From the NCBI RefSeq assembly GCF_005930475.1, contig NZ_SJEW01000009.1, positions 1 through 64,000 on the forward strand: DNA of 64,000 bases, given 5' to 3'. Numbering within the stretch: position 1 is the stretch's first letter; every line of letters begins with the position of its first letter. Source of the DNA: Modestobacter altitudinis (GTDB taxonomy: Bacteria; Actinomycetota; Actinomycetes; Mycobacteriales; Geodermatophilaceae). Under the pieces are notes generated by a model. The model had not been told where the DNA came from. It was given only the letters and a program-made list of their open reading frames with translations, and ran no database searches. Made by a program: the position numbers and the translations under genes. Of the stretch, positions 29,653-50,499 are shown piece by piece.

Positions 29653-29707
29653 GGCCCCGTCCCGAGGCTCACCCGAGCGTGCGGGGGACGGGGAGGACGG
29701 GGTCCTT
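29653..29707 (-). repeat. Dispersed ~55-bp element, copy A
   Basis: On the minus strand it starts AAGGACCCCGTCCTCC, contains CGCACGCTCGGG and ends GAGCCTCGGGACGGGGCC. It begins 2 nt after the glnB stop codon. The terminal parts (CCCCGTCC and GGACGGGG) are inverted repeats. Confidence 0.8.
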
Positions 29708-35779: not shown

Positions 35780-36580
35780 GTGAGCGCCGTCCGACTGGTC
35801 ACCTTCAACACCCACCACGGCGTCGGGGACGACGGCCGGCACGACCTGGCCCGGGTGGCCCGGCTGCTCGACGACGCCGATCCCGACGTCATCTGCCTGC
35901 AGGAGGTCGACCGGCACTTCGGTGAGCGGAGCGAGTTCGTCGACCAGGCACTGCTGCTGGCCGAGGCGCTGGACCGGGAGCTCGCCTGGGCACCGTCGAT
36001 CGACAAGGCCCCCCAGGGCGGCCGGACGGAGCGACGGCAGTACGGCAACGCCCTGCTGTCGCGGCTGCCGGTGCGCAGCTCCGAGGTCCACGCCCTGCCC
36101 GGTGGCGGTGAGCCGCGGAGCGCGCTGCACGCCCGGCTGCAGCTCGAGGGGAGCGAGCTCGAGGTGGTCACCACCCACCTGTCCAGCCGGTCGCCCGCCG
36201 ACCGGGCGGCGCAGGCCGCCACCCTCGCCCGGCTGCACCCCGGGGGCTCGCCGACGGTGGTGGTCGGTGACCTCAACGCCGACGCCGGTGCCCCCGAGCT
36301 CGACGCGCTGCGCCAGCGGTTCGCCGACGCGTGGGAGCTGGCCACCGACCGCAGCGACCAGGCCGGCCGGTTCTCGCTGCGCGGGGGCCGCGGCCTGACC
36401 CATCCGGCGCGGCGACCGCGGGTGCGGATCGACCAGGTGTGGGTCTCCCCGGACGTGTCCGTCGTCGACGCCCGGGTGCTCGACGGCGCGGCCACCTCCG
36501 ACCATCACCCGCTGCTGGTCGACCTGGTGATGAAGGACCCCCTCTCCCCCGCCCCTCGCACGCTCGGGGCGGGCCCCTAG
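35780..36580 (+). CDS. Endonuclease/exonuclease/phosphatase (EEP) family protein, C-terminus formed by a repeat
   Basis: The 266-residue EEP protein has VRLVTFNTHHG, ICLQEVDRHFG, VVTTHLSS, VVVGDLNADAG and the terminal catalytic SDHHPLLVDLV. Substrates in this family range from DNA to phosphoinositides, so none can be assigned. The GTG at 35780 matches the first strand. The natural fold ends at SDHHPLLVDLVM. The last 15 codons (KDPLSPAPRTLGAGP) and the TAG stop are read from dispersed-repeat copy B. Confidence 0.85.
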   Translation: MSAVRLVTFNTHHGVGDDGRHDLARVARLLDDADPDVICLQEVDRHFGERSEFVDQALLLAEALDRELAWAPSIDKAPQGGRTERRQYGNALLSRLPVRSSEVHALPGGGEPRSALHARLQLEGSELEVVTTHLSSRSPADRAAQAATLARLHPGGSPTVVVGDLNADAGAPELDALRQRFADAWELATDRSDQAGRFSLRGGRGLTHPARRPRVRIDQVWVSPDVSVVDARVLDGAATSDHHPLLVDLVMKDPLSPAPRTLGAGP

Positions 36581-36588
36581 AGGGGGCC
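36533..36588 (+). repeat. Dispersed ~55-bp element, copy B, overlapping the EEP stop codon
   Basis: It starts AAGGACCCCCTCTCCC, contains CCTCGCACGCTCGGGGCG and ends CCTAGAGGGGGCC. The terminal inverted repeats are compensated: GGACCCCCTCT pairs with AGAGGGGGCC. It lies between the convergent EEP and smc genes and provides a stop codon to the former. Confidence 0.8.
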
Positions 36589-36594
36589 GTACCG

Positions 36595-39500
36595 CTAGGC
36601 CGTCTGGAGCTCCCGGAGACGCTGGCTGATGACGCCGGTGATGCCGTCGCCGCGCATGCTCACGCCGTAGAGGGCGTCGGCGATCTCCATCGTCCGCTTC
36701 TGGTGGGTGATGACGATCAGCTGCGAGCTGCTGCGGAGCTGCTCGACGAGGGTGAGCAGCCGGCCCAGGTTGACGTCGTCGAGCGCGGCCTCGACCTCGT
36801 CGAGCACGTAGAACGGCGAGGGGCGGGCGCGGAAGATCGCCACCAGCAGCGCGACCGCGGTCAGCGACCGCTCACCGCCGGACAGCAGCGACAGCCGCTT
36901 CACCTTCTTACCGGGCGGGCGCGCCTCGACCTCCACCCCGGTCGTCAGCAGGTCGTCGGGGTCGGTGAGGTAGATGCGTCCCTCGCCGCCGGGGAAGAGG
37001 ATCGAGAAGACCTCGGCGAACTCGCGCTGGGTGTCGGCGAAGGCCTCGGCGAACACCTCGTGGATGCGGGCGTCGACCTCGCGGACGACGGTGAGCAGGT
37101 CCCGGCGGGTGTTCTTGAGGTCCTCCAGCTGGGTGGCGAGGAAGGTGTGCCGCTCCTCCAGCGCGGCGAACTCCTCCAGCGCCAGCGGGTTGACCTTGCC
37201 CAGCGCGGCGAGGTCGCGCTCGGCGCGGGCGGCCCGGCGTTCGGTCACCGCGCGGTCGTAGCGGACCGGCTCTGGTTCGGGCTCGCCCGCCTCGGCCGCT
37301 GCCGCGACCTGTGCCTGGGTCGGCGGCACCAGCGCCGCCGGGCCGTACTCGCCGACCAGGGTGGGCAGGTCGACGCCGTACTCCTCGGCCGCGCGCGCCT
37401 CCAGTGCCTCGATCCGCAGCCGCTGCTCGGCGCGGGCGACCTCGTCGCGGTGCACCTCGTCGGTGAGCCGGTCCAGCTCTCCGGTGTGCTCCCGGACCCG
37501 GGCGCGGACCACCAGCAGCTCGGCCTCCCGGCCGGTGCGGGCCACGGCCAGGGCGTCGCGCTCGGTGACGGCACGGGCCAGCGACGCGCTCAGCGCGGTC
37601 TGGGCCTCCTCCGCGCCGCGGCGCACGGCTGCGGCGACGCGGGCCCCGCGCTCCCGGGCGACCCGGGCCGCCGCGGCCCGCTCGCGCGCGGCGCGCTCCT
37701 GCCGGGCCTGGCGACGCAACGACTCCGCCCGCCCGGTGAGCGACCGGGCGCGCTCCTCGGCGGTGCGCACCCCGAGCCGGGCCTCGGTCTCCGCCTGCCG
37801 GGCACCGGCGGCCTCGGCCCGGAGCCGGTCGCGCTCGTCGGTCGAGGGCTCCTCCTCCAACGGCGCGGCCTCGGCGGCGGCCAGCCGCTCCTCGATCTCG
37901 ACCAGCCCGGCGACCGCGGCGTCGCGGGCCTGCTCCGCGCGCACCCGGGCGGCATCCAGCCGCTGCGCCTCGGCGACCGCCGAGCGCGCGGCGGCTCCCA
38001 GCTCGGCCAGCTCGGCGGCGGCGGCCGAGCGCGCCCGGTCACCGGCCTGCCGGGCGGTGAGCGCGGTGTCGACGTCGGCGGAGCGCTGCGCGGCGACGTC
38101 CCGGGCGTCGGCCAGCTCGTCGGCCAGCCGGGCGGCGGTGGCGGTGGCGCGGTCCAGCTCCGCCGCGGCCTCGTCGACCCGGGCCCGCACCTCGAGCCCC
38201 GACGGGGCGTTCAGCTGGCCGCCCACCGCCCAGTCGGCGCCGAGCAGGTCACCGGAGCCGGTGACCGCCCGGACCCGCGGGTGGGTGCGCACCAGCGCCA
38301 CGGCGGCGGCCAGGTCGCCGACGACGGCGACCCGCTCCAGCGCGCGGGCCAGCGCCGGGCCGAGCTCGGCGGGTGCGGTGACCAGGTCGAGGGCCCAGCG
38401 AGCGCCCTCGGGCAGCTCCGGCCAGCCGTCCCGGGCGACCGGGGGCAGGCCGCCGGTGACCAGCAGGCCCACCCGCCCGCCGTCGGTCCCGGCCAGGTGG
38501 GTGAGCACGTCGGCGGCCTCGGCGACCCCGGCGACGACCACCGCGTCGGCCAGCCCGCCCAGGGCGGCCGCGATCGGGACCTCGGCGCCCGGCGCGACGG
38601 TGAGCCGGTCGGGGACCGGCCCGAGCACCCCGGACAGGCCGGCGGCGAGCACGGCGGCCGCGCCGTCGGCGGGGGCGAGCCCCAGGGCCAGCGCGTCGCG
38701 GCGGGCCTGCCAGCCGGCGCGGTCCCGTTCGGCGGCGCGTTCGGCGGCGGTCAGCTCGGCGACGGTGCGGGCGGCCCCGGCGGAGGCCGCGATCGCGGCG
38801 GCGTGCGCTGCGGCGAGGTCCTCGTCACCGCCGGCGTCCTCGGTCAGCTCTGCGCGCCGGGCCTCCAGCCGTTCCGCAGCCGCGTCGGCCCGGTCGGCGG
38901 CCTCGGTGGCCGCGGCGGCGAGCCGGTCGATCTCCGCCTCCCCCGCCGCGGCACGCGACCGGCCCGCGGCCACCTTCCCGGAGAGCCGGGCCAGGTGCTC
39001 GCGGCGGTCGGCCAGCGCACGGGCGGCGGCGACCAGGGCACGCTCCGCCTCGGACAGGGCCGTCTCCACCTCGGCCCGCAGCGCCACGGCGGTCGTCAGC
39101 CGGGCGCGCTCGGCCTCCAGTGACTCGGCGAGCTCGCGCTCGGTCGCCTCGACCCGCTCGGCCTCGGCGTCCAGCGCGTCCGGGTCGCGGCCGGTGGGAC
39201 CGGCCGGCGGCGCGGCGGACAGGTGCCGGTGCCGCTCGGCGGCCAGCTGGCCGACGCTGCGGAAGCGCTCGGCCAGGGTGGACAGCCGGTACCAGCTGTC
39301 CTGGGCGGTGGCCAGCGCGGGCGCATCGGCGGCCAGCTGCCGTTCCAGGGCCGACTCGGTGCGGGAGGCCTCACCCAGCGCGGCCTCGACCACCGCCCGG
39401 CGGGCGCGCGCGGCGGTCTCGTCGGCGACGTCGGCATCGAGGGCGTCGCGCAGCCCGACCAGGTCGTCGGCGAGCAGCCGCAGCCGGGCGTCCCGCAGGT

Positions 39501-40161
39501 CGGCCTGGACCCCGGCCGCCCGGCGGGCCACCTCGGCCTGCTTGCCCAGCGGCTTGAGCTGGCGGCGCAGCTCGGCGGTCAGGTCGCCCAGCCGGTCGAG
39601 GTTGGCCTGCATCGCGTCGAGCTTGCGGAGCGCCTTCTCCTTGCGCTTGCGGTGCTTGAGGACGCCGGCGGCCTCCTCGACGAAGGCGCGCCTGTCCTCC
39701 GGGCGACCGGACAGGACGGCGTCGAGCTGCCCCTGCCCGACGATGACGTGCATCTCCCGGCCGATGCCCGAGTCGCTCAGCAGTTCCTGGACGTCGAGCA
39801 GCCGGACCTTGTCACCGTTGATCTCGTACTCGCTCTCACCGGAGCGGTACATCCGGCGGGTGATCGACACCTCGGTGTAGTCGATGGGCAGCGCGCCGTC
39901 GGCGTTGTCGATCGTCAGCGTCACCTCGGCGCGGCCCAGCGCCGGCCGACCGGCCGTGCCGGCGAAGATGACGTCCTCCATCTTCCCGCCGCGCAGGCTC
40001 TTGGCGCCCTGCTCGCCGAGCACCCAGGCGATCGCGTCGACGACGTTGGACTTGCCCGAGCCGTTCGGGCCGACGACGGCGGTGATGCCGGGTTCCAGGC
40101 GGAGCGTCGTCGGCGACGCGAAGGACTTGAAGCCCTTGAGCGTCAGGCTGGACAGGTGCAC
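36595..40161 (-). CDS. smc: Chromosome segregation ATPase SMC
   Basis: SMC organises and segregates chromosomes with ScpA/ScpB. The 1188-residue product shows N-terminal Walker A (VVGPNGSGKSNVVDAI), a long Ala/Glu/Arg-rich coiled coil, the hinge around residues 500-640, a second coiled coil, the ABC signature (LSLLSGGERSLTAVALL) and Walker B (FYVLDEVEAALDDVN). The GTG at 40161 gives MHLSSLTLKGFKSFA, the family start. Several very long ORFs on the plus strand are shadows of its Ala/Arg codons. Confidence 0.97.
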   Translation of the reverse strand: MHLSSLTLKGFKSFASPTTLRLEPGITAVVGPNGSGKSNVVDAIAWVLGEQGAKSLRGGKMEDVIFAGTAGRPALGRAEVTLTIDNADGALPIDYTEVSITRRMYRSGESEYEINGDKVRLLDVQELLSDSGIGREMHVIVGQGQLDAVLSGRPEDRRAFVEEAAGVLKHRKRKEKALRKLDAMQANLDRLGDLTAELRRQLKPLGKQAEVARRAAGVQADLRDARLRLLADDLVGLRDALDADVADETAARARRAVVEAALGEASRTESALERQLAADAPALATAQDSWYRLSTLAERFRSVGQLAAERHRHLSAAPPAGPTGRDPDALDAEAERVEATERELAESLEAERARLTTAVALRAEVETALSEAERALVAAARALADRREHLARLSGKVAAGRSRAAAGEAEIDRLAAAATEAADRADAAAERLEARRAELTEDAGGDEDLAAAHAAAIAASAGAARTVAELTAAERAAERDRAGWQARRDALALGLAPADGAAAVLAAGLSGVLGPVPDRLTVAPGAEVPIAAALGGLADAVVVAGVAEAADVLTHLAGTDGGRVGLLVTGGLPPVARDGWPELPEGARWALDLVTAPAELGPALARALERVAVVGDLAAAVALVRTHPRVRAVTGSGDLLGADWAVGGQLNAPSGLEVRARVDEAAAELDRATATAARLADELADARDVAAQRSADVDTALTARQAGDRARSAAAAELAELGAAARSAVAEAQRLDAARVRAEQARDAAVAGLVEIEERLAAAEAAPLEEEPSTDERDRLRAEAAGARQAETEARLGVRTAEERARSLTGRAESLRRQARQERAARERAAAARVARERGARVAAAVRRGAEEAQTALSASLARAVTERDALAVARTGREAELLVVRARVREHTGELDRLTDEVHRDEVARAEQRLRIEALEARAAEEYGVDLPTLVGEYGPAALVPPTQAQVAAAAEAGEPEPEPVRYDRAVTERRAARAERDLAALGKVNPLALEEFAALEERHTFLATQLEDLKNTRRDLLTVVREVDARIHEVFAEAFADTQREFAEVFSILFPGGEGRIYLTDPDDLLTTGVEVEARPPGKKVKRLSLLSGGERSLTAVALLVAIFRARPSPFYVLDEVEAALDDVNLGRLLTLVEQLRSSSQLIVITHQKRTMEIADALYGVSMRGDGITGVISQRLRELQTA

Positions 40162-40238
40162 GGCGGAGAGGCTCCCGGAGGGGTACGACAGTCCTGCTCG
40201 GCGCAGGGTCGCCCCATGATGACCGACGGCATGCCGAT

Positions 40239-40268
40239 CGCCCCTCGCGTCGGTGGACGCGAGGGGCG
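40239..40268. terminator. 13-bp stem-loop upstream of smc
   Basis: The arms CGCCCCTCGCGTC and GACGCGAGGGGCG pair perfectly around the loop ggtg. It lies between the small coiled-coil gene and smc (both minus strand) and is followed by a copy of the dispersed repeat. Likely terminator. Confidence 0.7.
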
Positions 40269-40287
40269 CCTGGGGCGGGTGAGCAGG

Positions 40288-40341
40288 AGGACGCCTCCCT
40301 CTCACCCCTCGCCGGCTCGGGATGAGCCTCCGGACGGGGCC
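40288..40341 (+). repeat. Dispersed ~55-bp element, copy C
   Basis: Its plus-strand sequence AGGACGCCTCCCTCTCACCC, CGCCGGCTCGGGATGAGCC and TCCGGACGGGGCC aligns without gaps to the other copies. It ends one base before the stop codon of the minus-strand coiled-coil gene, so it is 3'-adjacent to that gene. Confidence 0.75.
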
Positions 40342-40342
40342 G

Positions 40343-40534
40343 TCAGGCGAGAGCGGGCGCGGCCGACTCGTGGGCCATGGTGAGCAGCTCGCGGGCGATC
40401 GTGGCGTCCCGCTCCTCACGGAGGGCGGCGATCTCCTCCTCGAGGCGGCGCACCTTCGCGCGCAGGGCGGCGTTCTCCTCGGCTACTCGAAGCTCGTGCG
40501 GAGCGACGATCGAACCGAACAGGGCCTTGGCCAT
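40343..40534 (-). CDS. Small coiled-coil protein upstream of smc (hypothetical)
   Basis: The 63-residue protein consists of a short N-terminus (MAKALFGSIVAPHELRVAEE) and a single leucine-zipper-like heptad helix (NAALRAKVRRLEEEIAALRE). GAAAGG lies ~9 nt before the ATG. It could dimerise or bind a larger coiled-coil partner; adjacency to smc is suggestive only. Codon use is ordinary. I do not recognise a named family. Confidence 0.7.
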   Translation of the reverse strand: MAKALFGSIVAPHELRVAEENAALRAKVRRLEEEIAALREERDATIARELLTMAHESAAPALA

Positions 40535-40680
40535 GGCTCAGCGGCCTTTCACGTGCAGGAGTGGGTCCCTCGCACCGCCGGGGCGGTCTGCGCGGGTTGG
40601 TGTCCTCAGGGTGACAGCCGCTTCGACCTGGGTCAACGGCGCAGCTACCTCTGCCGGGTGTCGGGCGGATGTCGTCTTGG

Positions 40681-40946
40681 TCACCCCACGGTGAAGCCGG
40701 CCACCCCTGCACCACGTCGTCGCGGTGCTGCACACCGGCGACCGCGCCCGGCGCCCGCGGTCCGGAGAGCTCGGCCAGGACCGCACGGACGTCGTCCGCC
40801 GGGCCCTCGAGCACCACCTCGGCCCGTCCACGAAGGACCCCGCTGCCCCCCACGCCTCGCAGGCTCGGCGCGGGCCCCTGCACCGGGGCCGGGCCGACGC
40901 CCTGCACCTGACCCTCGACCAGCGCGAGGACGCGCAGCACCGTCAC
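40681..40946 (-). pseudogene. acyP: Acylphosphatase gene with core replaced by a repeat and a 3' frameshift
   Basis: The start LRVLALVEGQVQGVG and the later GRAEVVLEGPADDVRAVLAE are clear acylphosphatase. The ~23 residues normally between them, with the catalytic Arg (GFR) and Asn, are missing. They are replaced by 21 codons (PAPVQGPAPSLRGVGGSGVL...) from dispersed-repeat copy D. A -1/+2 frameshift near the end separates GVQHRDDVVQ from the expected tail GVAGFTVG and its TGA (40681-40683). Position between mutM and smc matches acyP of mycobacteria. The GTG overlaps the mutM stop. Confidence 0.75.
40833..40890 (+). repeat. Dispersed ~55-bp element, copy D, inside the acylphosphatase gene
   Basis: It starts AAGGACCCCGCTGCCCCCC, contains GCCTCGCAGGCTCGGCGCG and ends GGCCCCTGCACCGGGGCC. 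It lies antisense to acyP, precisely between the codons for VQGVG and GRAEVV. Its arms carry compensating changes (GGACCCCGCTG versus CACCGGGGCC). Confidence 0.78.
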
Positions 40947-41827
40947 GATCGTCGGACCCGTGGCCGCGGTTGGCACTGCGGGCAGCTGTAGCTGGACCGG
41001 TTCATGAACGACTCGCGGCGGATCGGGGTCCCGCACCGGGGGCACGGCCGGTCCAGCTGGCCGTAGACCGCCAGGTGCCGGGAGAAGTACCCGCTCTGCC
41101 CGTTGACGTCGACGTAGAGCGAGTCGAAGGAGGTGCCGCCCTGCTCGAGGCTCTCCCCCAGCACGTCGCGGACGCCCTCCAGGAGGTCGGCGACCTGGGC
41201 GCGGGTGAGCTTGTCGGTGGGCCGGGCGCCGTGCAGCCGGGCGCGCCACAGCGACTCGTCGGCGTAGATGTTGCCGACCCCGCCGATCAGGGTCTGGTCC
41301 AGCAGCGCACGCTTGACCTCGGTGTGCCGACGGCGGAGCGCGGCGCTGAAGGCGTCGACGTCGAAGGCGTCGTCCAGCGGGTCGATGGCGATGTGTGCCA
41401 GCCGCGGCGGCACGTCGGCGGGGTCCGTCCCCGCGCCGTCCTCCACCGCCAGCCCGCCGAACGTGCGCTGGTCGACGAAGCGCAGCTCGCGGCCGCCGTC
41501 GGTGAACCGGAGACGGGCGCGCAGGTGGACCTCGTCGGCCTCCTCGGGCTTCTCCACGAGCAGCTGCCCGCTCATCCCGAGATGGGCGACCAGGGCACGG
41601 CCGGTGGGGGTGCCGTCGGCCTCGGCGACGGGCAGCCACAGGTACTTCCCGCGCCGGTGGGCGGCGGTCAGGGTGCGACCGGTCAGCGCGGCCACGAAGT
41701 GCTCGGTCCCCTCGAGGTGCCGGCGGACCGCCCGCGGGTGGTGCACCTCGACCGCGGCGACGGTCCGGCCGGTGACCCAGCGGTCGAGGCCGCGCCGGAC
41801 GACCTCGACCTCGGGCAGCTCGGGCAC
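40943..41827 (-). CDS. mutM: Formamidopyrimidine-DNA glycosylase
   Basis: MutM/Fpg excises oxidised purines. The 294-residue product has the catalytic N-terminal Pro ([14 protein letters not shown], exposed after Met removal). The H2TH region ([20 protein letters not shown]) and the zinc finger [11 protein letters not shown]...CPQC are present. Its GTG start lies within 2 nt of the rnc stop. Its stop overlaps the start of the acyP remnant by 4 nt. Confidence 0.96.
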
Positions 41828-41828
41828 G

Positions 41829-42557
41829 TCAGCCGCCCGCGGGTCCGCCGTCGGTCGCCGTCGTGAGCGAGTGCCACGCGGCTTCGGCGGCCTCCTGCTC
41901 GGCGGCCTTCTTGGTGCGTCCGGTGCCCTTGCCGCGGATCTGGCCGGCCAGCAGCACGGCGGCGGTGAACGTCTTGGCGTGGTCGGGACCGGTGTCCTCG
42001 ACGTCGTAGACCGGGGCGCCCAGGCCCTGGCCGGCAGCGAGCTCCTGCAGGCTGGTCTTCCAGTCCAGTGCGGCGCCGCGGGTGGCCGACTCGGCCAGCA
42101 GCGGGTCGAACAGCCGGTGGACGATCGCCGAGGCGGTGGTCAGCCCCAGCCCCAGGTGGACGGCGCCGATGAGCGCCTCCAGTGCATCGGCGAGGATCGA
42201 GTCCTTCTCCCGGCCGCCGGTGGTCGTCTCGCCGCGGCCCAGCAGCAGGTGCGGGCCGATGCCGCCCTCGCCGAGCGAGCGGGAGACGCGGGCCAGCGAG
42301 TTCATGTTGACCACCGAGGCGCGCAGCTTGGCCAGCTGCCCCTCGGGCAGCTCGGGGTGGCTCCGGTAGAGCTCGTCGGTCACCACGAGCCCGAGCACCG
42401 AGTCGCCGAGGAACTCCAGGCGCTCGTTGGTCGGCAGGCCACCGTGCTCGTACGCGTAGGACCGGTGGGTCAGCGCCAGCTCCAGCAGTGCCGGGGACAG
42501 CTCGACGCCCAGGGCGTCGGCGAGCCAGCGGCCGGCGGCGTCGGTGTGCTCGGTCAC
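41829..42557 (-). CDS. rnc: Ribonuclease III
   Basis: RNase III cleaves double-stranded RNA, including rRNA precursors. The product of about 242 residues has the catalytic signature [20 protein letters not shown], the second acidic cluster [13 protein letters not shown], and a C-terminal dsRBD ([36 protein letters not shown]). The GTG at 42557 best matches homologue length; an in-frame GTG at 42584 would add nine residues. A 10-bp stem-loop lies just upstream. Order rpmF-rnc-mutM is conserved. Confidence 0.95.
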
Positions 42558-42588
42558 GACGGGCGGACGACCGGCGGCGTCCACGGCC

Positions 42589-42613
42589 GCAGGCCCCCTG
42601 CCGGGGGGCCTGC
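42589..42613. promoter_or_regulatory. 10-bp stem-loop in the rnc leader
   Basis: The arms GCAGGCCCCC and GGGGGCCTGC pair perfectly around tgccg, between rpmF and rnc. It may be a partial terminator or, by analogy with enterobacterial rnc, an RNase III processing site for autoregulation (inference). Confidence 0.5.
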
Positions 42614-42666
42614 CGCCGAGGACGCCGGAGCGGAGGTCGGCTGCGCCATGGTGCGGGTGCGCAGGG

Positions 42667-42846
42667 TCAGACCGCGAGGACCTGACGGCCGTCGTGCTGA
42701 CCGCAGGTGGGGCACGCGATGTGCGGGGGCTTGAGCTCGCCGCAGGCCTTGTTCGGGCAGGGGGCCAGGGTCGGGGCCGTGGCCTTCCACTGCGACCGGC
42801 GCGAGCGGGTGTTGCTGCGCGAGGTGCGCCGCTTCGGGACAGCCAT
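42667..42846 (-). CDS. rpmF: 50S ribosomal protein L32 (zinc-binding form)
   Basis: The 59-residue L32 starts [20 protein letters not shown] and has the four zinc cysteines CPNKAC and CPTC. Presence of the Cys pairs marks the zinc-containing (C+) paralogue. It lies 2 bp after the DUF177 gene, the usual DUF177-rpmF pairing. Confidence 0.96.
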
Positions 42847-42848
42847 GA

Positions 42849-43556
42849 TCAGTTCTCCTCGGTGTCGGTGCTCCCGGAGCCCGGCTGGGCCCCGTCGGCG
42901 TCGTTCGCAGTGCTGTCGTTCAGGTCGGCGAAGCGCGCGGCCAGCCCGGCGAACCGGGGGTCGATCACCTCGTGCGAGTGGTCAGCGGGCAGGTCGTCCA
43001 GCCGCTCACCGCAGTCGACGCACAGGCCGGCGCAGTCCGGCGTGCAGGTCGGCGACAGCGGCAGGGTGAGGACGACGGTGTCCCGGACGAGCGGGGCCAG
43101 GTCGAGCGTGTCGCCCTCGATCCGGCGCACCTCGTCCTCGCCGCTGGTGGCCTCGGTGGTGCTGCCCTCGTAGGCGTACAGCTCCTGGACGTCGAGCTCC
43201 AGGGTGTCCTCGACGGGGTCCAGGCACCGCGCGCACTGCCCGGTCACCGGGACGTCGACGGTGCCGCTGACCAGCACGCCCTCCATCACGGACTCGAGCC
43301 GCAGGTGCAGGTCGACCGGTGCGCCCTCGGGGACCCCGATCATCTCGACACCCCAGCCCGGCCGGGCGGGGAGCGTCCTGTCCCACTCGCGCATGGTGCC
43401 GGCGCGCCGGCCCAGCTCGCGGAGGTCGACGGTCCACGCCTTGGCAGCTGCCTTCTCCGCGGCCTTCTCGGCGACCGAGCGGGTCGCGGGGTCGGCGGCG
43501 GGGCGCTGCGCGTCGGTGGACGCGGCGCCGGGGAACGGTGCAGGGGAAGCAGACAT
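42849..43556 (-). CDS. DUF177 (YceD) family protein
   Basis: YceD proteins are conserved upstream of rpmF and affect 23S rRNA maturation in some bacteria. The 235-residue product has the typical zinc-like cysteines [20 protein letters not shown] and [17 protein letters not shown]- and C-terminal ends are Ala- and acid-rich. The next genes are rpmF and rnc, consistent with an rRNA/ribosome biogenesis operon. Confidence 0.93.
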
Positions 43557-43626
43557 GTCAGTACTCGTCGTCGTCGATGGTGGGTTCGCCGGGAGCGCAC
43601 GGGAGGCAGCGGCCGGACGGAGGTCG

Positions 43627-43632
43627 AGCTTA
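43627..43632 (-). promoter_or_regulatory. Candidate -10 element upstream of DUF177-rpmF-rnc
   Basis: Minus-strand TAAGCT (TANNNT) lies about 70 bp upstream of the DUF177 start, in the 144-bp gap after sepIVA. No convincing -35 is visible. Confidence 0.3.
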
Positions 43633-43661
43633 CCCGATCCTCCGCCGGCCTCGTCCCGGTG

Positions 43662-43717
43662 TCAGGGCGTGCGCAGGTCCGGTGGGCCCAGCGCGGTCGG
43701 TCAGGGCGTGCGCAGGT
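43662..43717. repeat. 17-bp direct repeat spanning the sepIVA stop codon
   Basis: tcagggcgtgcgcaggt occurs at 43662-43678 and 43701-43717, offset by 39 bp. The second copy encodes the last codons and stop of the sepIVA-like gene on the minus strand; the first repeats them beyond the stop, suggesting a local duplication of the gene end. Confidence 0.75.
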
Positions 43718-44390
43718 TGACGCGCGCCTTCTCCACCGAACGCATCATGTGCGACAGCGTGTTCCCGAAGTCGGCGAGCCGGGTGTCGACGTAGTCGTCG
43801 ACCTCCGCGCGCATCCGGGCGACCTCGGCCGCGGTCCGCGCCCCGAGCGCGTCGGCCCGGTCGACCGCCGTCCGGTACACCTCGGTCTCGGTGAGCAACC
43901 GCTCGTGCTCGACCTCACCGGCGGCGACCAGTTCGTCCTGCTGGCGCTGCCCGTCGGCGAGGAGCTGCTCGCGCAGCCGGCGGGCCTCGGCGAGCAGCCG
44001 CTCGGCCTCCGCCTCGGCCTCGGCCAGCAGCTCGTCGGCCTCCGCCTGGGCCTGGGTGAGGATCTCGTCGCGCTGCCGGCGGGCGGTGCCGACCAGCTCC
44101 TCGCGCTGGCGGCGGGCGTTGGCCACGACCTGCTCGCTGTCGCTGCGGGTGCGCCCGGTCAGCCGCTCGGCCTCCGCCTGGGCCTGCTGGAGGATCTCGG
44201 TGCGCTGCTCGACGATGGCGCCGGCCTGCTGCACCTCCTCGGGGAGGGACTCACGCAGGTCGTCGAGCAGGTCGAGCAGGTGGTCGCGCGGCACCATGCA
44301 GGACGAGGACATCGGCACGCTGCGGGCGTTCTCGATGACCGTGGTCAGTTCGTCCACGGTCTCGTACAGCCGGTAGACGACCTCCGTCAT
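43701..44390 (-). CDS. sepIVA: SepIVA-like DivIVA-domain coiled-coil protein
   Basis: The 229-residue protein starts MTEVVYRLYETVDELTTVIE and is dominated by a charged coiled coil of Ala/Glu/Arg heptads (AEADELLAEAEAEAERLLAE). The N-terminal helix and position next to coaD and DUF177-rpmF-rnc match mycobacterial SepIVA (Rv2927c), a septum-associated protein. DivIVA-type proteins recognise curved membranes. Its ATG overlaps the coaD stop by 4 nt. Confidence 0.85.
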   Translation of the reverse strand: MTEVVYRLYETVDELTTVIENARSVPMSSSCMVPRDHLLDLLDDLRESLPEEVQQAGAIVEQRTEILQQAQAEAERLTGRTRSDSEQVVANARRQREELVGTARRQRDEILTQAQAEADELLAEAEAEAERLLAEARRLREQLLADGQRQQDELVAAGEVEHERLLTETEVYRTAVDRADALGARTAAEVARMRAEVDDYVDTRLADFGNTLSHMMRSVEKARVNLRTP

Positions 44391-44875
44391 GGCTGCTGCC
44401 TCTCCCTCGCCTGCGCCACCAGCCGGTCGTTGACCGCCTTGGGGACCAGTGACGAGACATCGCCGCCGAACTTCGCGATCTGCTTGACCAGGCTCGAGGA
44501 GAGGTGGCCGACCTGCGGCGCGGTCGGCACGAACAGGGTCTCGACCCCGGCCAGCTCGCGGTTCATCTGCGCCATCTGCAGCTCGTACTCGAAGTCGCCG
44601 ACGGCCCGGAGGCCCTTGACGATCACCGGGATGTCCCGGTCGCGGCAGTAGTTCACCAGCAGGCCCTCGAAGCTGTCCACGGTGACGTTGGACAGGTCGA
44701 CGACCGCCTCACGCAGCAGGGCCATCCGCTCCGAGACGTCGAACAGGCCCGCCTTGCCGGGGTTGACCAGCACTGCGACGACCAGTTCGTCGTACAGGGC
44801 GGCGGCGCGCGCGATCACGTCGACATGGCCGTTGGTGACCGGGTCGAACGAACCGGGACAGACCGCACGCCTCAC
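44387..44875 (-). CDS. coaD: Phosphopantetheine adenylyltransferase
   Basis: CoaD makes dephospho-CoA from phosphopantetheine and ATP. The 162-residue product has the nucleotidyltransferase HxGH-like motif CPGSFDPVTNGHVDVIAR and the C-terminal SSSLVKQIAKFGGDVS, with GLRAVGDFEYELQMAQMN between. The GTG overlaps the rsmD stop (GTGA), giving the order rsmD-coaD-sepIVA, all translationally coupled. Confidence 0.96.
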   Translation of the reverse strand: MRRAVCPGSFDPVTNGHVDVIARAAALYDELVVAVLVNPGKAGLFDVSERMALLREAVVDLSNVTVDSFEGLLVNYCRDRDIPVIVKGLRAVGDFEYELQMAQMNRELAGVETLFVPTAPQVGHLSSSLVKQIAKFGGDVSSLVPKAVNDRLVAQARERQQP

Positions 44876-45426
44876 GACAAGCGACCGTACCGGAGCACCG
44901 CCTCCCCGTACCGACGATCACGGACTCCGATCAGCGGTGTCGGCCACTCCCACGGCTGCTCGCGACTGGACCGCTCGACGACGACCACGGCGTCCGGGCT
45001 CAGCCAGCCGTTCCCGGCGAGGGCGCGCAGCACGCCCAGCACCTCCTCCTCGGGAGCCGCGTACGGCGGGTCGGCGACCACCAGGTCGAAGCCGGCCGGG
45101 GCCGCCCCCGCGACCACGGTCGGCACGCTGCCCGGCAGCACCACGGCACCACGCAGGCCCACCGCGGCGATGTTCTCGCGCAGCACCGGCAGCACCCCGC
45201 CGCCGGACTCCACGAAGACCACCTCGGCCGCGCCGCGGGACAGCGCCTCCAGACCGAGCGCGCCGGAGCCGGCGTAGAGGTCCAGCACCCGGATGCCGTC
45301 GAGGTCCAGCAGCGAGCCCAGCGAGTTGAACAGGCCCTCGCGCGCCCGGTCGCCGGTGGGCCGCACCCCGGCGCGCGGGACCTTCAGCCGCCGCCCACCA
45401 GCAGATCCAGCGATGATGCGGGTCAC
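44872..45426 (-). CDS. rsmD: 16S rRNA (guanine-N2)-methyltransferase RsmD
   Basis: RsmD methylates G966 of 16S rRNA. The 184-residue protein has the family start TRIIAGSAGGRRL, PTGDRAREGLFNSL, the SAM motif VLDLYAGSGALGLEALSRG and the catalytic DPPY (VVADPPYAAPEEE). It is coupled to coaD. Upstream lies a repeat-rich gap of about 110 bp separating it from recG. Confidence 0.94.
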   Translation of the reverse strand: MTRIIAGSAGGRRLKVPRAGVRPTGDRAREGLFNSLGSLLDLDGIRVLDLYAGSGALGLEALSRGAAEVVFVESGGGVLPVLRENIAAVGLRGAVVLPGSVPTVVAGAAPAGFDLVVADPPYAAPEEEVLGVLRALAGNGWLSPDAVVVVERSSREQPWEWPTPLIGVRDRRYGEAVLRYGRLS

Positions 45427-45462
45427 GCCCCCGGCCCCCTGCAGGGTCCCACCGCGAGTGGG

Positions 45463-45517
45463 AGGACCCCGTCCTCCTCACCCCTCGCACGCTCGGGGCG
45501 AGCCTCGGGACGGGGCC
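45463..45517 (+). repeat. Dispersed ~55-bp element, copy E, in an inverted composite
   Basis: It starts AGGACCCCGTCCTCCTCACC, contains CCTCGCACGCTCGGGGCG and ends AGCCTCGGGACGGGGCC, the cleanest copy. The adjoining 45518-45536 contains, in reverse orientation, a second element end (AAGGACCCCCTGCCCCCC read from recG), starting 3 nt past the recG stop. Confidence 0.82.
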
Positions 45518-45538
45518 TGGGGGGCAGGGGGTCCTTCC

Positions 45539-47752
45539 TCACGCCTTCTCCAGGTAGTCGGCTCGCTCGTCCATCGCCAGCGCGGCGACCGCGGCGGCCA
45601 GCTCGGGGTGGTCGGCGAGTCCGCCGCCCTGCTCGACCAGGGCGGTCGCCTCGGCCCGCGCCTCGGCGATGAGCGTCTCGTCGTCCAGCAGCGAGAGCAG
45701 CTTGACGTTCGAGCGGCGGCCGGACTGCGCCGCGCCGAGCACGTCACCCTCCCGGCGGGTCTCCAGGTCCAGCCGGGCCAGCTCGAAGCCGTCGGTGGTG
45801 CCGGCGACGGCGGCCAGCCGCTGCCCGGTCGCCGACGAGCTGGACGCCTCGCTGACCAGCAGGCACAGCCCCGCGTGCCTGCCCCGGGCCACCCGGCCGC
45901 GCAGCTGGTGCAGCTGGCTGACGCCGAACCGGTCGGCGTCCATCACCACCATCACCGTGGCGTTGGGCACGTCGACGCCGACCTCGACGACGGTGGTGGC
46001 GACCAGCACGTCGACCTCGGCGGCGGCGAAGGCCCGCATCCGGGCCTCCTTCTCCTCCGCGGGCATCCGGCCGTGCAGCACCTCCACCCGCAGCGCCGAC
46101 AGCGGCCCGGAGCGCAGACCCTCCGCGACGTCGAGCACGGCCAGCGGCGGACGGCGGTCGCTGCCGCCCTTCTCCTCCTCCTCCGGCGGGGCGCCGTCGG
46201 CGTCGTCCGGCCCGTCGTCGTCCGCGGCCTTGCCGTTCCCGCCGTCCTCCAGGTCACCGATCCGGGGGCAGACGACGTAGGCCTGCCGCCCGGCCGCGAC
46301 CTCCTCCCGCACCCGGGCCCAGGCGCGGTCCAGCCAGGCAGGCTTGTCCCGCACCGGGACCACCGAGCTGGACACACCACCCCGGCCGGCGGGCAGCTGG
46401 CGCAGCGTGGAGGTCTCCAGGTCGCCGTAGACGGTCATGGCCACGGTGCGCGGGATCGGCGTCGCCGTCATCACCAGCACGTGCGGCGGTCGGGTGCCCT
46501 TGGCGCGCAACGCGTCGCGCTGCTCGACGCCGAAGCGGTGCTGCTCGTCGACGACGACCAGACCGAGGTCGGCGAACTCCACGCCCTCCTGCAGCAACGC
46601 GTGCGTGCCGACGACGATGCCGGCACTGCCGTCGGCGACCGCGGCCCGGGCCTCCCGGCGGACGGCGGCCTTCTGCGACCCGGTCAGCAGCACCACCCGG
46701 GTGCCCGCCGGGTCGCCGTCCAGCTCGCCGGCCCGGGCCAACGGACCCAGGATCGCGGTCAGGCTGCGGGCGTGCTGGGCGGCGAGCACCTCGGTGGGCG
46801 CGAGCAGCGCCGCCTGGCCGCCGGCGTCGACCACCTGGGCCATCGCGCGCAGCGCGACGACGGTCTTGCCCGAGCCCACCTCGCCCTGCAGCAGCCGGTT
46901 CATCGGCTGCACCCGGGCCAGCTCCCCGGCCAGCTCCTCACCGACCTCGCGCTGGCCCTCGGTGAGGGAGAACGGCAGCGCGGCGTCGACGGCGTCCAGC
47001 AGCCCGCCGCGGCGCCGCGGGCGCTCGATGCCGGGCTCCAGGGCAGCGGCGCGCCGGCGGGCGGCGAGCGTGCACTGCAGCACCAGTGCCTCGTCCCACT
47101 TCAGGCGCTCGTCGGCGAACTCCACCTGGGCGGTCGACTCGGGACGGTGCTTGTAGACCAGCGCCGTGGCCAGCGACGGCAGGCCGTGCCGGTCGCGGAC
47201 CGGCTGGGGGATCGGGTCGTCGAGCAGGGCCTCCAGCGAGCTCCGGTCGTCCAGCAGCAGCTTGACCGACTTCTGGATCACCCAGCTGGAGACGTCCTTG
47301 CTGGCCGGGTAGATCGGCACCAGGGCGCGGGCCCAGTCGTCGTCGTCGCCGGTCATGATGTGGCAGTCGGGGTGGCTGAACTGCTTGTCGCCCCGCCAGA
47401 GCCCCACGGTGCCGGCGAACAGACCCCACTCCCCGACGTCCAGGTGCGCATGCCGGTTGTTGAAGAAGACCAGCCGCATGCTGCCCGCGCCGTCGCCCAC
47501 GGTGACCTCGGTCAGCGTCCCCCGGCGCTGCTGCATCCTGCGGGTGCTCACGCTCTTGACCTGGGCCAGCACGGTCACCCGGTCGCCGACCTCGAGGTCG
47601 TCCAGCCGGGCCATCTCCCCGCGGCGGGCGTACCGGCGCGGGTAGTGCCGCAGCAGGTCGCGCACGGTGCGCAGCTGCAACTGGTCGGCCATCACCTTCG
47701 CGGTCTTGGGGCCGAGCACCCGGACCAGGTCGGTGTCCATGGCCACCATCAC
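45539..47752 (-). CDS. recG: ATP-dependent DNA helicase RecG
   Basis: RecG reverses stalled forks and processes Holliday junctions. The 737-residue product has the N-terminal OB wedge domain (VGDRVTVLAQVKSVSTRR), Walker A (LLQGEVGSGKTVVALRAM), DEQHRFGVEQRDAL and TATPIPRTVAMTVYGDLETS. Motif VI is LHQLRGRVARGRH. An acidic insertion (DDDGPDDADGAPPEEEEKG) interrupts the helicase domain. Its start overlaps the DAK2 gene stop, so the two are coupled. Confidence 0.96.
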   Translation of the reverse strand: MMVAMDTDLVRVLGPKTAKVMADQLQLRTVRDLLRHYPRRYARRGEMARLDDLEVGDRVTVLAQVKSVSTRRMQQRRGTLTEVTVGDGAGSMRLVFFNNRHAHLDVGEWGLFAGTVGLWRGDKQFSHPDCHIMTGDDDDWARALVPIYPASKDVSSWVIQKSVKLLLDDRSSLEALLDDPIPQPVRDRHGLPSLATALVYKHRPESTAQVEFADERLKWDEALVLQCTLAARRRAAALEPGIERPRRRGGLLDAVDAALPFSLTEGQREVGEELAGELARVQPMNRLLQGEVGSGKTVVALRAMAQVVDAGGQAALLAPTEVLAAQHARSLTAILGPLARAGELDGDPAGTRVVLLTGSQKAAVRREARAAVADGSAGIVVGTHALLQEGVEFADLGLVVVDEQHRFGVEQRDALRAKGTRPPHVLVMTATPIPRTVAMTVYGDLETSTLRQLPAGRGGVSSSVVPVRDKPAWLDRAWARVREEVAAGRQAYVVCPRIGDLEDGGNGKAADDDGPDDADGAPPEEEEKGGSDRRPPLAVLDVAEGLRSGPLSALRVEVLHGRMPAEEKEARMRAFAAAEVDVLVATTVVEVGVDVPNATVMVVMDADRFGVSQLHQLRGRVARGRHAGLCLLVSEASSSSATGQRLAAVAGTTDGFELARLDLETRREGDVLGAAQSGRRSNVKLLSLLDDETLIAEARAEATALVEQGGGLADHPELAAAVAALAMDERADYLEKA

Positions 47753-49368
47753 TCCACCCCCACCAGCAGGGGCAGCGCCCCGGCACCCCCGGCGTACCGG
47801 ACCACCTCGACCGTCGGGTGCACCGCCGCCAGGTGGGCGGACACGCTGTCGCCCAGGGCGGCGTCCGCCCCCACGACCAGCGTCGCCATCTCCCCGCCGG
47901 CCGAGAGCAGCCGGTCGAGCAGGTCCCGGGCCACCGTGGCGGGGTCCGCGCCGATGACGACGACGTCACCCTCCGCGCTGCCCAGCACGTCGCCGGGGCG
48001 GCAGCGCCCGGCCGAGGTGAGGGCCTCCTGGTCGGCGACCGTGACCTCGGCCCAGCGGGTGGCCGCGGCCGCCTCGGCCAGCGCGATGACGTCGTCGCCG
48101 AACCGGCGGGCCGGGTCGGCGACGGCCAGCGCGGCCAGCCCCTGGACCGGTGACCGGGTCGGGACGACGACCACGTCCCGGCCCTGGGCGCGGGCGCGGT
48201 CGGCGGCCCGGCCGGCGGGGGCGATCGCCCCCGCGGCGTTGGGCAGCACGACGACCTGCTCGGCGCCCGTGCCCAGGACGGCACGCAGCACGTCGTCCTC
48301 GTCGACGCCGTCGACCGGCGCGGTGAGGACGGCGACGCCCTCCCCCGCGAACAGCTCGGCCAGCCCGGCCGCGCAGGCCAGCGCGACGACCGCCCGGACG
48401 CCCGGGGCCGCAGCCGGCGGGAGCAGCGGTGCCAGCGCGGTGACCGAGATGCGGTGCGGCCGGCCGGCCTCGATGCCGGCCTCGATCGCGGCGCCGACGT
48501 CGGCGACGTGCACGTGCACGTTCCACTCGCGTCCGGCGGGGGTGTCGACGCCGACCACGACAAGGCAGTCCCCGAGCGCGGCGAGCCGGGTCTGCAGCCG
48601 GGCGACGGCGGCCGGGTCGGAGTCGGCGAGCAGGAACTGCACCTCGCTGCCCGGACCGGGAGCGGGCGGGCCGGGCACCGGGACCAGGGGGCGGGCCGGG
48701 CGGCCGCCGAGCGGAGGGCGGACCGGCGCCACCCCGGTCACCGTGCCGACCAGCGCGTCCAGCACCAGGCACCAGCCCGCTCCCCCGGCGTCGACGACCC
48801 CGGCGTCGCGCAGCGCGGCGAGCTGGCCGGTGGTGGCCTGCAGCGCGGTGAGCGCGCCGTCGGCGGCCGCCCGGACGACGTCGGCGAGCCCGGTCCGCCC
48901 CTCGGCGACCGCGGTGGCCGCGGCCTCGGCGCCCGACCGGGCCACGGTGAGGAAGGTGCCCTCCTCGGGGTCGGCGACGGCGCCGTACGCGGTCCGGGAG
49001 GCGCTGGTGAGCGCCGTGGCGAGGACCTCGCCGTCGACCTCGGGCTCGTCGGCCAGCCCGTCGGCGAGGCCGCGCAGGAGCTGGGCGAGGATCGCGCCGG
49101 AGTTGCCCCGGGCACCCAGCACGGCGCCCCGGGCGAGCACCAGCCACGGGGACTCGGGTCGGCGGCCGCCGTCGTCCCGCGCGGCCTGCAGGGCGGCGTC
49201 GAGGGCAGCGTGCCCGGCCTCGGCGGTGAGCAGCAGGTTGGTGCCGGTGTCACCGTCGGGCACCGGGAAGACGTTGAGCTCGTCGAGCCGGCTGCGGGCC
49301 GCGCCGAGGCTGTCGACGACGGCACGACTCCACCGGCCGACCGCGGCGTCGTCCAGCGCCCTCAGCAC
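47749..49368 (-). CDS. DAK2-domain protein (YloV/FakA-like)
   Basis: The 539-residue protein has an N-terminal DAK2/dihydroxyacetone-kinase phosphatase-like domain (ELNVFPVPDGDTGTNLLLTA, GARGNSGAILAQLLRG) and a C-terminal DegV-like region. The same architecture is found in FakA, the fatty-acid kinase ATP-binding subunit, in Firmicutes. No DegV-type FakB partner gene is adjacent, and Rv2974c is the mycobacterial neighbour. The GTG at 49368 is chosen as the start of conserved sequence. Confidence 0.85.
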   Translation of the reverse strand: MLRALDDAAVGRWSRAVVDSLGAARSRLDELNVFPVPDGDTGTNLLLTAEAGHAALDAALQAARDDGGRRPESPWLVLARGAVLGARGNSGAILAQLLRGLADGLADEPEVDGEVLATALTSASRTAYGAVADPEEGTFLTVARSGAEAAATAVAEGRTGLADVVRAAADGALTALQATTGQLAALRDAGVVDAGGAGWCLVLDALVGTVTGVAPVRPPLGGRPARPLVPVPGPPAPGPGSEVQFLLADSDPAAVARLQTRLAALGDCLVVVGVDTPAGREWNVHVHVADVGAAIEAGIEAGRPHRISVTALAPLLPPAAAPGVRAVVALACAAGLAELFAGEGVAVLTAPVDGVDEDDVLRAVLGTGAEQVVVLPNAAGAIAPAGRAADRARAQGRDVVVVPTRSPVQGLAALAVADPARRFGDDVIALAEAAAATRWAEVTVADQEALTSAGRCRPGDVLGSAEGDVVVIGADPATVARDLLDRLLSAGGEMATLVVGADAALGDSVSAHLAAVHPTVEVVRYAGGAGALPLLVGVE

Positions 49369-49442
49369 GCCCGGCAGGGTACCGGGGGCCGCTGACAGGA
49401 CCGGTCCACGCGTGCCCTCCCCGGCCGCCGGGCCGGGGTGGG

Positions 49443-49472
49443 CCGACAGCGGTCCCGGACACCGGTTACAGT
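49443..49472 (+). promoter_or_regulatory. Candidate rpmB promoter
   Basis: CCGACA (49443-49448) and TACAGT (49467-49472) are separated by 18 bp, giving a plausible -35/-10 pair about 97 bp upstream of rpmB. The 200-bp spacer between the DAK2 gene and rpmB (49369-49568) contains nothing else clear. Confidence 0.4.
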
Positions 49473-49568
49473 GGTACCCAGCGTGTGCGTGGCTGGTGTC
49501 TGCCCTCGGGCCTCCGGCGGCACCGCGACCTGACTTCAGTTGGACCAATTCTCTGGGAGTGATCGACC

Positions 49569-49760
49569 GTGGCTGCCGTGTGCGACGTGTGTGGCAAGGG
49601 CCCCGGTTTCGGCATGTCGGTGTCCCACTCGCACCGCCGTACGCCGCGCCGTTGGAACCCGAACATCCAGGCCGTGAAGGCCGTCGTCGGTGCCGGCACC
49701 CGCCGCCGCATCAACGCCTGCACCTCCTGCATCCGCGCGGGCAAGGTCGTCCGCGGCTGA
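49569..49760 (+). CDS. rpmB: 50S ribosomal protein L28 (cysteine-containing form)
   Basis: The 63-residue L28 starts [20 protein letters not shown] and ends [13 protein letters not shown]. The two CxxC pairs mark the zinc-binding C+ form, as opposed to Zur-regulated C- paralogues. The GTG at 49569 has only a weak Shine-Dalgarno (CTGGGAG). It is divergent from the DAK2-recG pair, as in mycobacteria. Two nt past its stop begins repeat copy F, followed by a terminator hairpin. Confidence 0.96.
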
Positions 49761-49762
49761 CG

Positions 49763-49818
49763 AAGGACCCCGTCCTCCTCACCCCTCGCAAGCTCGGGGC
49801 GAGCCTCTGGACGGGGCC
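49763..49818 (+). repeat. Dispersed ~55-bp element, copy F, after rpmB
   Basis: It starts AAGGACCCCGTCCTCCTCAC, contains CCTCGCAAGCTCGGGGCG and ends AGCCTCTGGACGGGGCC. It begins 2 nt after the rpmB stop in the same orientation as the gene, as copy A does after glnB. Confidence 0.82.
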
Positions 49819-49835
49819 GAGGAGCGCGACATGGA

Positions 49836-49860
49836 CCCCGGAGGCCGCTGGCCTCCGGGG
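49836..49860. terminator. Intrinsic terminator between rpmB and the cytidylate kinase-like gene
   Basis: CCCCGGAGGCC and GGCCTCCGGGG pair perfectly around gct and are followed on the plus strand by TCTTCTG. It probably terminates rpmB and serves the convergent minus-strand gene from the other side. Confidence 0.8.
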
Positions 49861-49872
49861 TCTTCTGCGTGC

Positions 49873-50499
49873 TCAGCCGCCGATGCCCCGGGCACGGGCG
49901 GCGGTGACCAGCAGCTCGACCACCGCGTCGTGCGGCAGGGCGGTGCTGTCGACCACCAGGTGGTAGTGCCGGGACTCGGCCGGGTCGCAGCGGTAGAAGT
50001 GCCGCACGTAGGCGACCCGGGCCCGGTCGGCGGCCTCCTGGTCCCGGCGCACCTCGTCCTCCGGCCGGCCCGAGTGCGCGACCGCGGCGGCCAGCCGCCG
50101 TCCCGGCGGCCCGTCCAGCCGCACGTGCAGCACGTCGGGGCGGTCCCGCAGCACCATCGCCGCAGCCCGGCCGAGGACCACCCCGCCCGGGCCCGCGACG
50201 ATCTCGCCGAGCACCCGCTCGGTCTGCACCCGGTAGGCCCGCTCGTCGGGGAGCGCGGACGTCGGGAGCACACCGCCGACCGGGTCGGGCATCGTGCCCA
50301 GCGAGCTCACCAGCCGCCACAGGCCGCGGGTGACGGTCTCGTCGTTGGCCTCCGCCTCGGCGACGGGCACTCCCAGCCGCCCGGCCACCTGGGCCGGGAT
50401 GACCCGGTCGTGGAACGGCAGCCGCAGGCGCTCGGCGACGGCCGGGGCGATCTCGGCGCCGCCGGCACCGAACGACGCCGACACGGTCACGACGCCCAT
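49873..50499 (-). CDS. Cytidylate kinase-like family protein
   Basis: The 208-residue P-loop-like protein starts VVTVSASFGAGGAEIAPAVA and has FHDRVIPAQVAGRLGVP, LGRAAAMVLRDRPDVLHVRL and a C-terminal DSTALPHDAVVELLV, as in the AAA_33/cytidylate kinase-like group. The P-loop lacks the usual GKS (FGAGGAE), a feature of this group whose substrate is unknown. It overlaps the GNAT gene by 13 bp and ends at a shared terminator with rpmB. Confidence 0.82.
   Translation of the reverse strand: MGVVTVSASFGAGGAEIAPAVAERLRLPFHDRVIPAQVAGRLGVPVAEAEANDETVTRGLWRLVSSLGTMPDPVGGVLPTSALPDERAYRVQTERVLGEIVAGPGGVVLGRAAAMVLRDRPDVLHVRLDGPPGRRLAAAVAHSGRPEDEVRRDQEAADRARVAYVRHFYRCDPAESRHYHLVVDSTALPHDAVVELLVTAARARGIGG

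Follow-up and report, generated by a model that had tools for sequence, protein, structure and literature searches.

The acylphosphatase gene acyP of this Modestobacter lineage is a dead and dispensable gene, now a pseudogene, because a hairpin repeat has taken over the part that encoded its active site. The relic lies in a window of 64,000 nucleotides of Modestobacter altitudinis, a soil actinobacterium whose genome (G000; the other G-numbered genomes are relatives) is a 5.18-Mb draft of 161 contigs with a completeness of 99.49%. Its core was exchanged exactly for a copy of the repeat, probably in a single step of non-homologous repair. Loss of acyP alone is an ordinary event; the interesting part is the repeat family together with its habits, namely its anchoring at stop codons and its replacement of DNA within genes, of which no description was found in searches of the open literature.

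The relic occupies positions 40681..40946 of the minus strand, where mutM (fpg; 40943..41827, minus strand) is followed by a frame with a GTG start at 40946 overlapping the mutM stop codon, by a 63-aa ORF (40343-40534, minus strand), and by smc (36595..40161, minus strand), in agreement with the mutM-acyP-smc order proposed in the initial annotation. The frame begins with 18 acylphosphatase-like residues (the 5' remainder of the gene, 40893..40946), passes through 21 codons of the repeat, PAPVQGPAPSLRGVGGSGVLR (40830..40892), and continues as GRAEVVLEGPADDVRAVLAELSGPRAPGAVAGVQHRDDVVQ until it is interrupted by a frameshift; the 3' remainder (GRAEVVLEGP...DDVVQ, 40706..40829) ends approximately at a 1-nt deletion, all three parts lying on the minus strand. 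The tail GVAGFTVG follows this deletion in a different frame, and the locus alignment with relatives identifies the lost base as a single G absent from a G run, which bears out the downstream frameshift suspected earlier. With the PF00708 profile the relic obtains 15.5 bits, short of the cut-off of 22.5, and the protein of G008 obtains 67 bits. The identity of the relic as acyP, as first proposed, is supported by the acylphosphatase-like ends at this locus and by open orthologues in relatives.

The catalytic residues of acylphosphatase are presumably the Arg in VQGVGYR and the Asn in ATNLPDG, and the motifs VQGVGYR and NLPDG also align in the solved protein 1ulr. Both residues fall within the 23 replaced codons (YRWFVR...ATNLPD), confirming that the catalytic core has been lost. 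The frame is nevertheless open through the repeat and starts over the mutM stop codon, from which it might be supposed that a chimeric reading frame has been kept as a new small protein; this is very improbable, as the frameshift has removed the conserved C-terminus, the catalytic residues are gone, and the relic falls under the family cut-offs. A second acyP, for which the initial annotation had recommended a search, was not found when the draft genome was searched with the PF00708 profile. The profile is present in 16 of the 18 good genomes of the genus and in 68 of the 85 good genomes of the family (absent in 17/85), some of these matches falling in long frames of HypF size and not in acyP. 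In G004, nearly all of acyP is gone from the corresponding locus (L043:2370-2460) with no visible repeat, an independent loss.

Alignment with the acyP of relatives, also recommended at the outset, provides evidence for the exchange. The orthologous gene of G008 encodes VTAVRVVALVGGHVQGVG, YRWFVRAAATARGLAGSATNLPD and GRVEVVLEGPADDVRSVLAELSGPRAPGAVAGVQQRDDVVQGVRGFTVG in succession, followed by a stop codon; by translation, complete acylphosphatases of 90 aa are found at this locus in G008, G002, and G003, and acyP is open there in G022 as well. Against each of these four genomes the change is identical, 23 codons (69 nt) having been exchanged for 21 codons (63 nt, 40892-40830), and in the locus alignment none of the 69 nucleotides of acyP survives between the joints. 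The copy had first been placed at 40833-40890, where it does lie, although it is slightly longer, and its description as a replacement instead of an insertion agrees with the 69 to 63 nt change. An intact acyP in relatives, named in the initial annotation as an observation that would speak against its reading, was indeed encountered, but only in that it demonstrates the replacement. Because none of the four relatives carries the change, and no repeat copy is present at their acyP site, the replacement is dated, as judged by these relatives, to the window's own branch.

An error of assembly could be suspected in a draft of 161 contigs containing at least 150 copies of the repeat. It is nonetheless highly unlikely, given that both halves of acyP stand in order on either side with exactly the core missing, that a 60-nt repeat is shorter than an ordinary read, and that a like pattern occurs in G003, which is a single contig.

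Matches between the acyP copy and other copies start at 40891 (some at 40893) and end at 40832 or 40830. Against the rest of its own genome the acyP copy reaches at most 95% identity over 60 nt (best of 40 candidates, itself excluded), and because such matches exist elsewhere in the genome, its likeness to the repeat is not due to chance; among these 40 scored candidates no donor copy was identified. The initial annotation attributed the exchange to recombination between copies of the repeat or to gene conversion among them, and many similar copies do exist; however, the relatives hold no copy at this site and the lost DNA of acyP is not repeat-like, so that this proposal is unsupported and has very little probability. 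In a comparison of the lost 69 nt with the repeat, 36% of random coding windows score as high; homology-driven conversion at acyP is unlikely because the lost segment is no more repeat-like than such windows. For a TIGR03083-type gene hit by the same repeat in G008, the lost DNA is somewhat repeat-like, with 3.8% of windows scoring as high.

The preferred explanation starts from a break or a stalled replication fork within acyP. During its repair a repeat copy would most likely have contributed one strand, either as filler DNA or as the template of a switch, and the host sequence enclosed by the joints would have been discarded in one step and without homology. We infer such a one-step, non-homologous event at acyP, where the joints are exact and the sites of four relatives are free of the repeat. 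One Ku gene is present in the genome, and by eye the joints display little clear microhomology.

The repeat itself is an imperfect palindrome of 56-63 nt with two stems supported by compensatory covariation. The outer stem has about 10 pairs (GGCCCCGTCC..GGACGGGGTCC); beyond it come a bulge and then the inner stem, with some 8 pairs, which leads into the loop GAGCNTGCGA. In 27 copies from five genomes, standard pairs make up 92.9% of pair cells, and the covariation score of 0.310 compares with 0.138 (sd 0.012) for shuffled alignments, none of 500 shuffles scoring as high, and with at most 0.104 for slid structures. Covariance-model matches were obtained in all 23 genomes of the genus (22 to 156 per genome; about 150 candidates were scored in each, and most counts are lower bounds), with at least 150 in G000. 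In a DNA search, strong matches were found in other genera of Geodermatophilaceae and only weak ones outside the family (E of 7.8e-6 or worse), in both cases among the matches listed. Rfam gave no match at E<=1 in positions 36000-50000 of the window, and its 4 matches on L147-L152 did not include any over the repeat. An extra 5' flank like GGTGACGTGCTGGAACGG lies outside the hairpin in L168 and L172, with variants in L155, L160, L167, and L175; because several copies have this flank in common, a longer sub-family seems to exist.

The usual place of the repeat is directly behind stop codons. With genes taken from a home-made gene caller, the distance of the AAGGACC end from a stop codon of the same sense falls between -3 and +7 nt in 47 of 61 copies, compared with 2.9% of random intergenic placements. 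In a larger set of 145 copies, composed of 111 from 1.94 Mb of contiguous stretches and 34 from loci of G000 chosen by their likeness to the acyP copy, 119 are anchored within the same range (the random placements belong to the 61-copy set), and in 67 copies of this larger set the spacing between stop codon and repeat is exactly 2 nt. By genome, the anchored copies number 33/44 in G000, 5/6 in G002, 31/37 in G003, 32/40 in G008, and 18/18 in G022, copies common by descent being counted more than once. Some anchored copies, such as that at 49763, appear unanchored because the caller misses small genes. The stop codons at anchored copies (99 TGA, 14 TAG, and 6 TAA) are much like those of all called genes. 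A scan of positions 36000-50000 of the window for U-tailed terminators returned none, and the repeat behind stop codons may serve as a putative transcript-end hairpin. The acyP copy is an exception, with no stop codon before its AAGGACC end, and copies of this in-gene kind are probably rare misplacements that overwrite.

Several further copies in the window illustrate these habits. The copy at 36533..36587 (minus strand) provides the last codons, MKDPLSPAPRTLGAGP, of a plus-strand gene at 35780-36580 that we take to be endonuclease/phosphatase-like, and its site is without the repeat in four relatives, with a net gain of 52 nt. A degenerate copy (40290..40341, minus strand) stands behind the 63-aa ORF, and a near-consensus copy (49763..49818, minus strand) stands directly behind a TGA (TGA-CG-AAGGACC). 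Within 49763-49880, a second hairpin (GGACCCCGGAGGC...GCCTCCGGGGTC) comes after the latter copy, behind the same gene; at this site G008, G003, and G022 are without the repeat but possess a similar hairpin. The copy at 29654..29707 (plus strand) occurs in G000 only, among G000, G008, G003, and G022. Finally, the copy at 45463..45516 (minus strand) interrupts the loop region of an older copy that points the other way; at this nested site (45430-45540), G003 has the older copy alone and G008 has neither.

Whether copies are added to DNA or exchanged for it was assessed by mapping them to other genomes. A counterpart stretch in another genome could be assigned to 112 of the 145 copies but not to the other 33; for 77 copies, one or more orthologous sites are free of the repeat, an 'empty' site being one with no copy by profile at E up to 0.001, and at least one such site (in G003, opposite G008 C2 213497) holds a diverged copy. 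Only 4 of the 77 have their empty site well within a called gene, and all four cases are replacements (net -6, +4, +6, and +15 nt), with no clean insertion of about 60 nt among them. Going beyond the initial annotation, the same repeat has thus replaced DNA in three genes of two relatives (G008 and G003), in addition to the 69 to 63 nt exchange in acyP of G000. In the TIGR03083-type gene of G008 (net +4 nt; compared with the orthologue at G000 C161 64500-65147), both flanks are retained, the frame is lost, and the gene is truncated. In a DUF559-type gene of G003 (C1 4829385-4830266; L217:18382-19266), 18 codons have given way to 20 repeat codons in frame, as compared over 10 of 11 rows with the G001 locus left out; the codons lost correspond to VARVDFAWPERRLAVEYD of the G021 orthologue, and a D..E motif, to which we presume a catalytic role, is gone with them. 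In an AMP-binding acyl-CoA ligase gene of G008 (C2 517529-519217; L247:17529-19217), the net change is +15 nt and the length lost is uncertain because of other indels nearby; the frame is open over 562 aa with the repeat in frame, and the protein scores above the cut-offs of PF00501 and PF13193, a possible case of a repeat-derived peptide in a working enzyme.

Across 55 stop-anchored sites whose orthologue is empty (both gaps <200 nt, one partner each), the net gain has a median of 50 nt. About 4 nt or fewer were lost at 19 of them and more at 36, and the net change is +4 or less at 7; these losses are less certain than those within genes, because spacers diverge fast. Replacement is therefore neither the sole mode nor confined to genes, nearly clean insertions accounting for 19/55 sites and net changes no larger than +4 for 7/55. 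As the pattern of the few in-gene cases (n=4), among which those in frame are easier to notice, replacement is no more than suggestive.

These comparisons bear on two further explanations of the acyP relic. The repeat could have been inserted into acyP in a first step, with later deletions removing the core on one or both sides, an order of events to which the nearly clean insertions at 19 of the 55 stop-anchored sites and the separate 1-nt deletion in the relic lend some credit. It appears quite improbable, in that no letter of acyP lies between the joints, that the deletions would need to have stopped at the repeat's own ends, and that the three further in-gene cases are likewise exchanges rather than additions. 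Alternatively, a transposase of unknown kind could move the repeat as a MITE-like element and delete target DNA in the process, which would suit the conserved ends, the high copy number, the differences in presence and absence between close species, and the copy lodged within another copy. No target duplication was seen by eye in the sites aligned, however, and a Y1 (RAYT-type) transposase, the only family covered by the search, was matched in 0/23 genomes of the genus; movement of this kind is unlikely, though less so than the two-step course.

Single-step repair of acyP remains the preferred reading. A broader proposal is possible but doubtful: the hairpin element of Geodermatophilaceae may spread by overwriting host DNA, each copied strand, some 60 nt long, displacing about as many nucleotides of unrelated sequence, and stop codons would be the sites where it regularly lands. 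If this is true, genes hit mid-way would lose a stretch while their length is little changed; one of the genes hit, the acyl-CoA ligase of G008, keeps its frame open, and the repeat would there be translated as part of the protein. Insertion is the usual description for small palindromic repeats, whereas here four comparable in-gene copies have all replaced DNA, and the family is bound to stop codons in a single orientation, with a gap that is often exactly 2 nt. This raises the testable question of the means by which these repeats move, and of whether they provide the 3' ends of transcripts in the actinobacteria concerned.

Comparison with known systems places the relic and the repeat as follows. 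The relic resembles AcyP (PF00708) in its locus and in both remaining gene ends, and differs from it in lacking the catalytic core and in being frameshifted. Among repeats, REP elements are characterized as short, imperfect, extragenic palindromes with more than 100 copies per genome (PMC2817692), and the present repeat is likewise a short palindrome with more than 100 copies (at least 150 in G000) and an extragenic location (119/145 at gene ends). Unlike the REP/RAYT system, it is accompanied by no match to the Y1 transposase (PF01797) in 23 of the 23 genus genomes, 18 of them good drafts, in a search whose control was positive in 5 of 14 named genomes, and RAYT-driven movement is rejected on this result. 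Again unlike REP, it shows no GT(A/G)G head in a constant position, as judged by eye in 27 aligned copies and in 29 further copies of G000, and it often stands 2 nt from a stop codon in one orientation.

Rickettsia palindromic elements, reported as in-frame insertions in ORFs, resemble the present family in being palindromic repeats that certain genes carry within their reading frame (PMC10969869). In contrast to them, the repeat described here lies mostly outside genes, and its in-gene copies (4/77) all replace DNA: the core is missing from acyP and from the DUF559-type gene, the TIGR03083-type gene is cut short, and the frame of the acyl-CoA ligase is open. The prokaryotic MITEs, including SPRITE and BOX, are presented in the same source as small repeats capable of inserting into each other, with SPRITE resembling a terminator (PMC10969869), and the present family, too, comprises small repeats lodged within one another. 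In the aligned repeat sites, where spacers have diverged, no target site duplication of the MITE kind was seen by eye. Actinobacterial intrinsic terminators without a U tract consist of a strong hairpin right behind the stop codon, and the repeat resembles them as a stable hairpin behind gene ends, as indicated by its fold, its covariation, and its anchoring. Unlike such terminators, the hairpin described here belongs to a homologous repeat family in which the loop and the ends are conserved.
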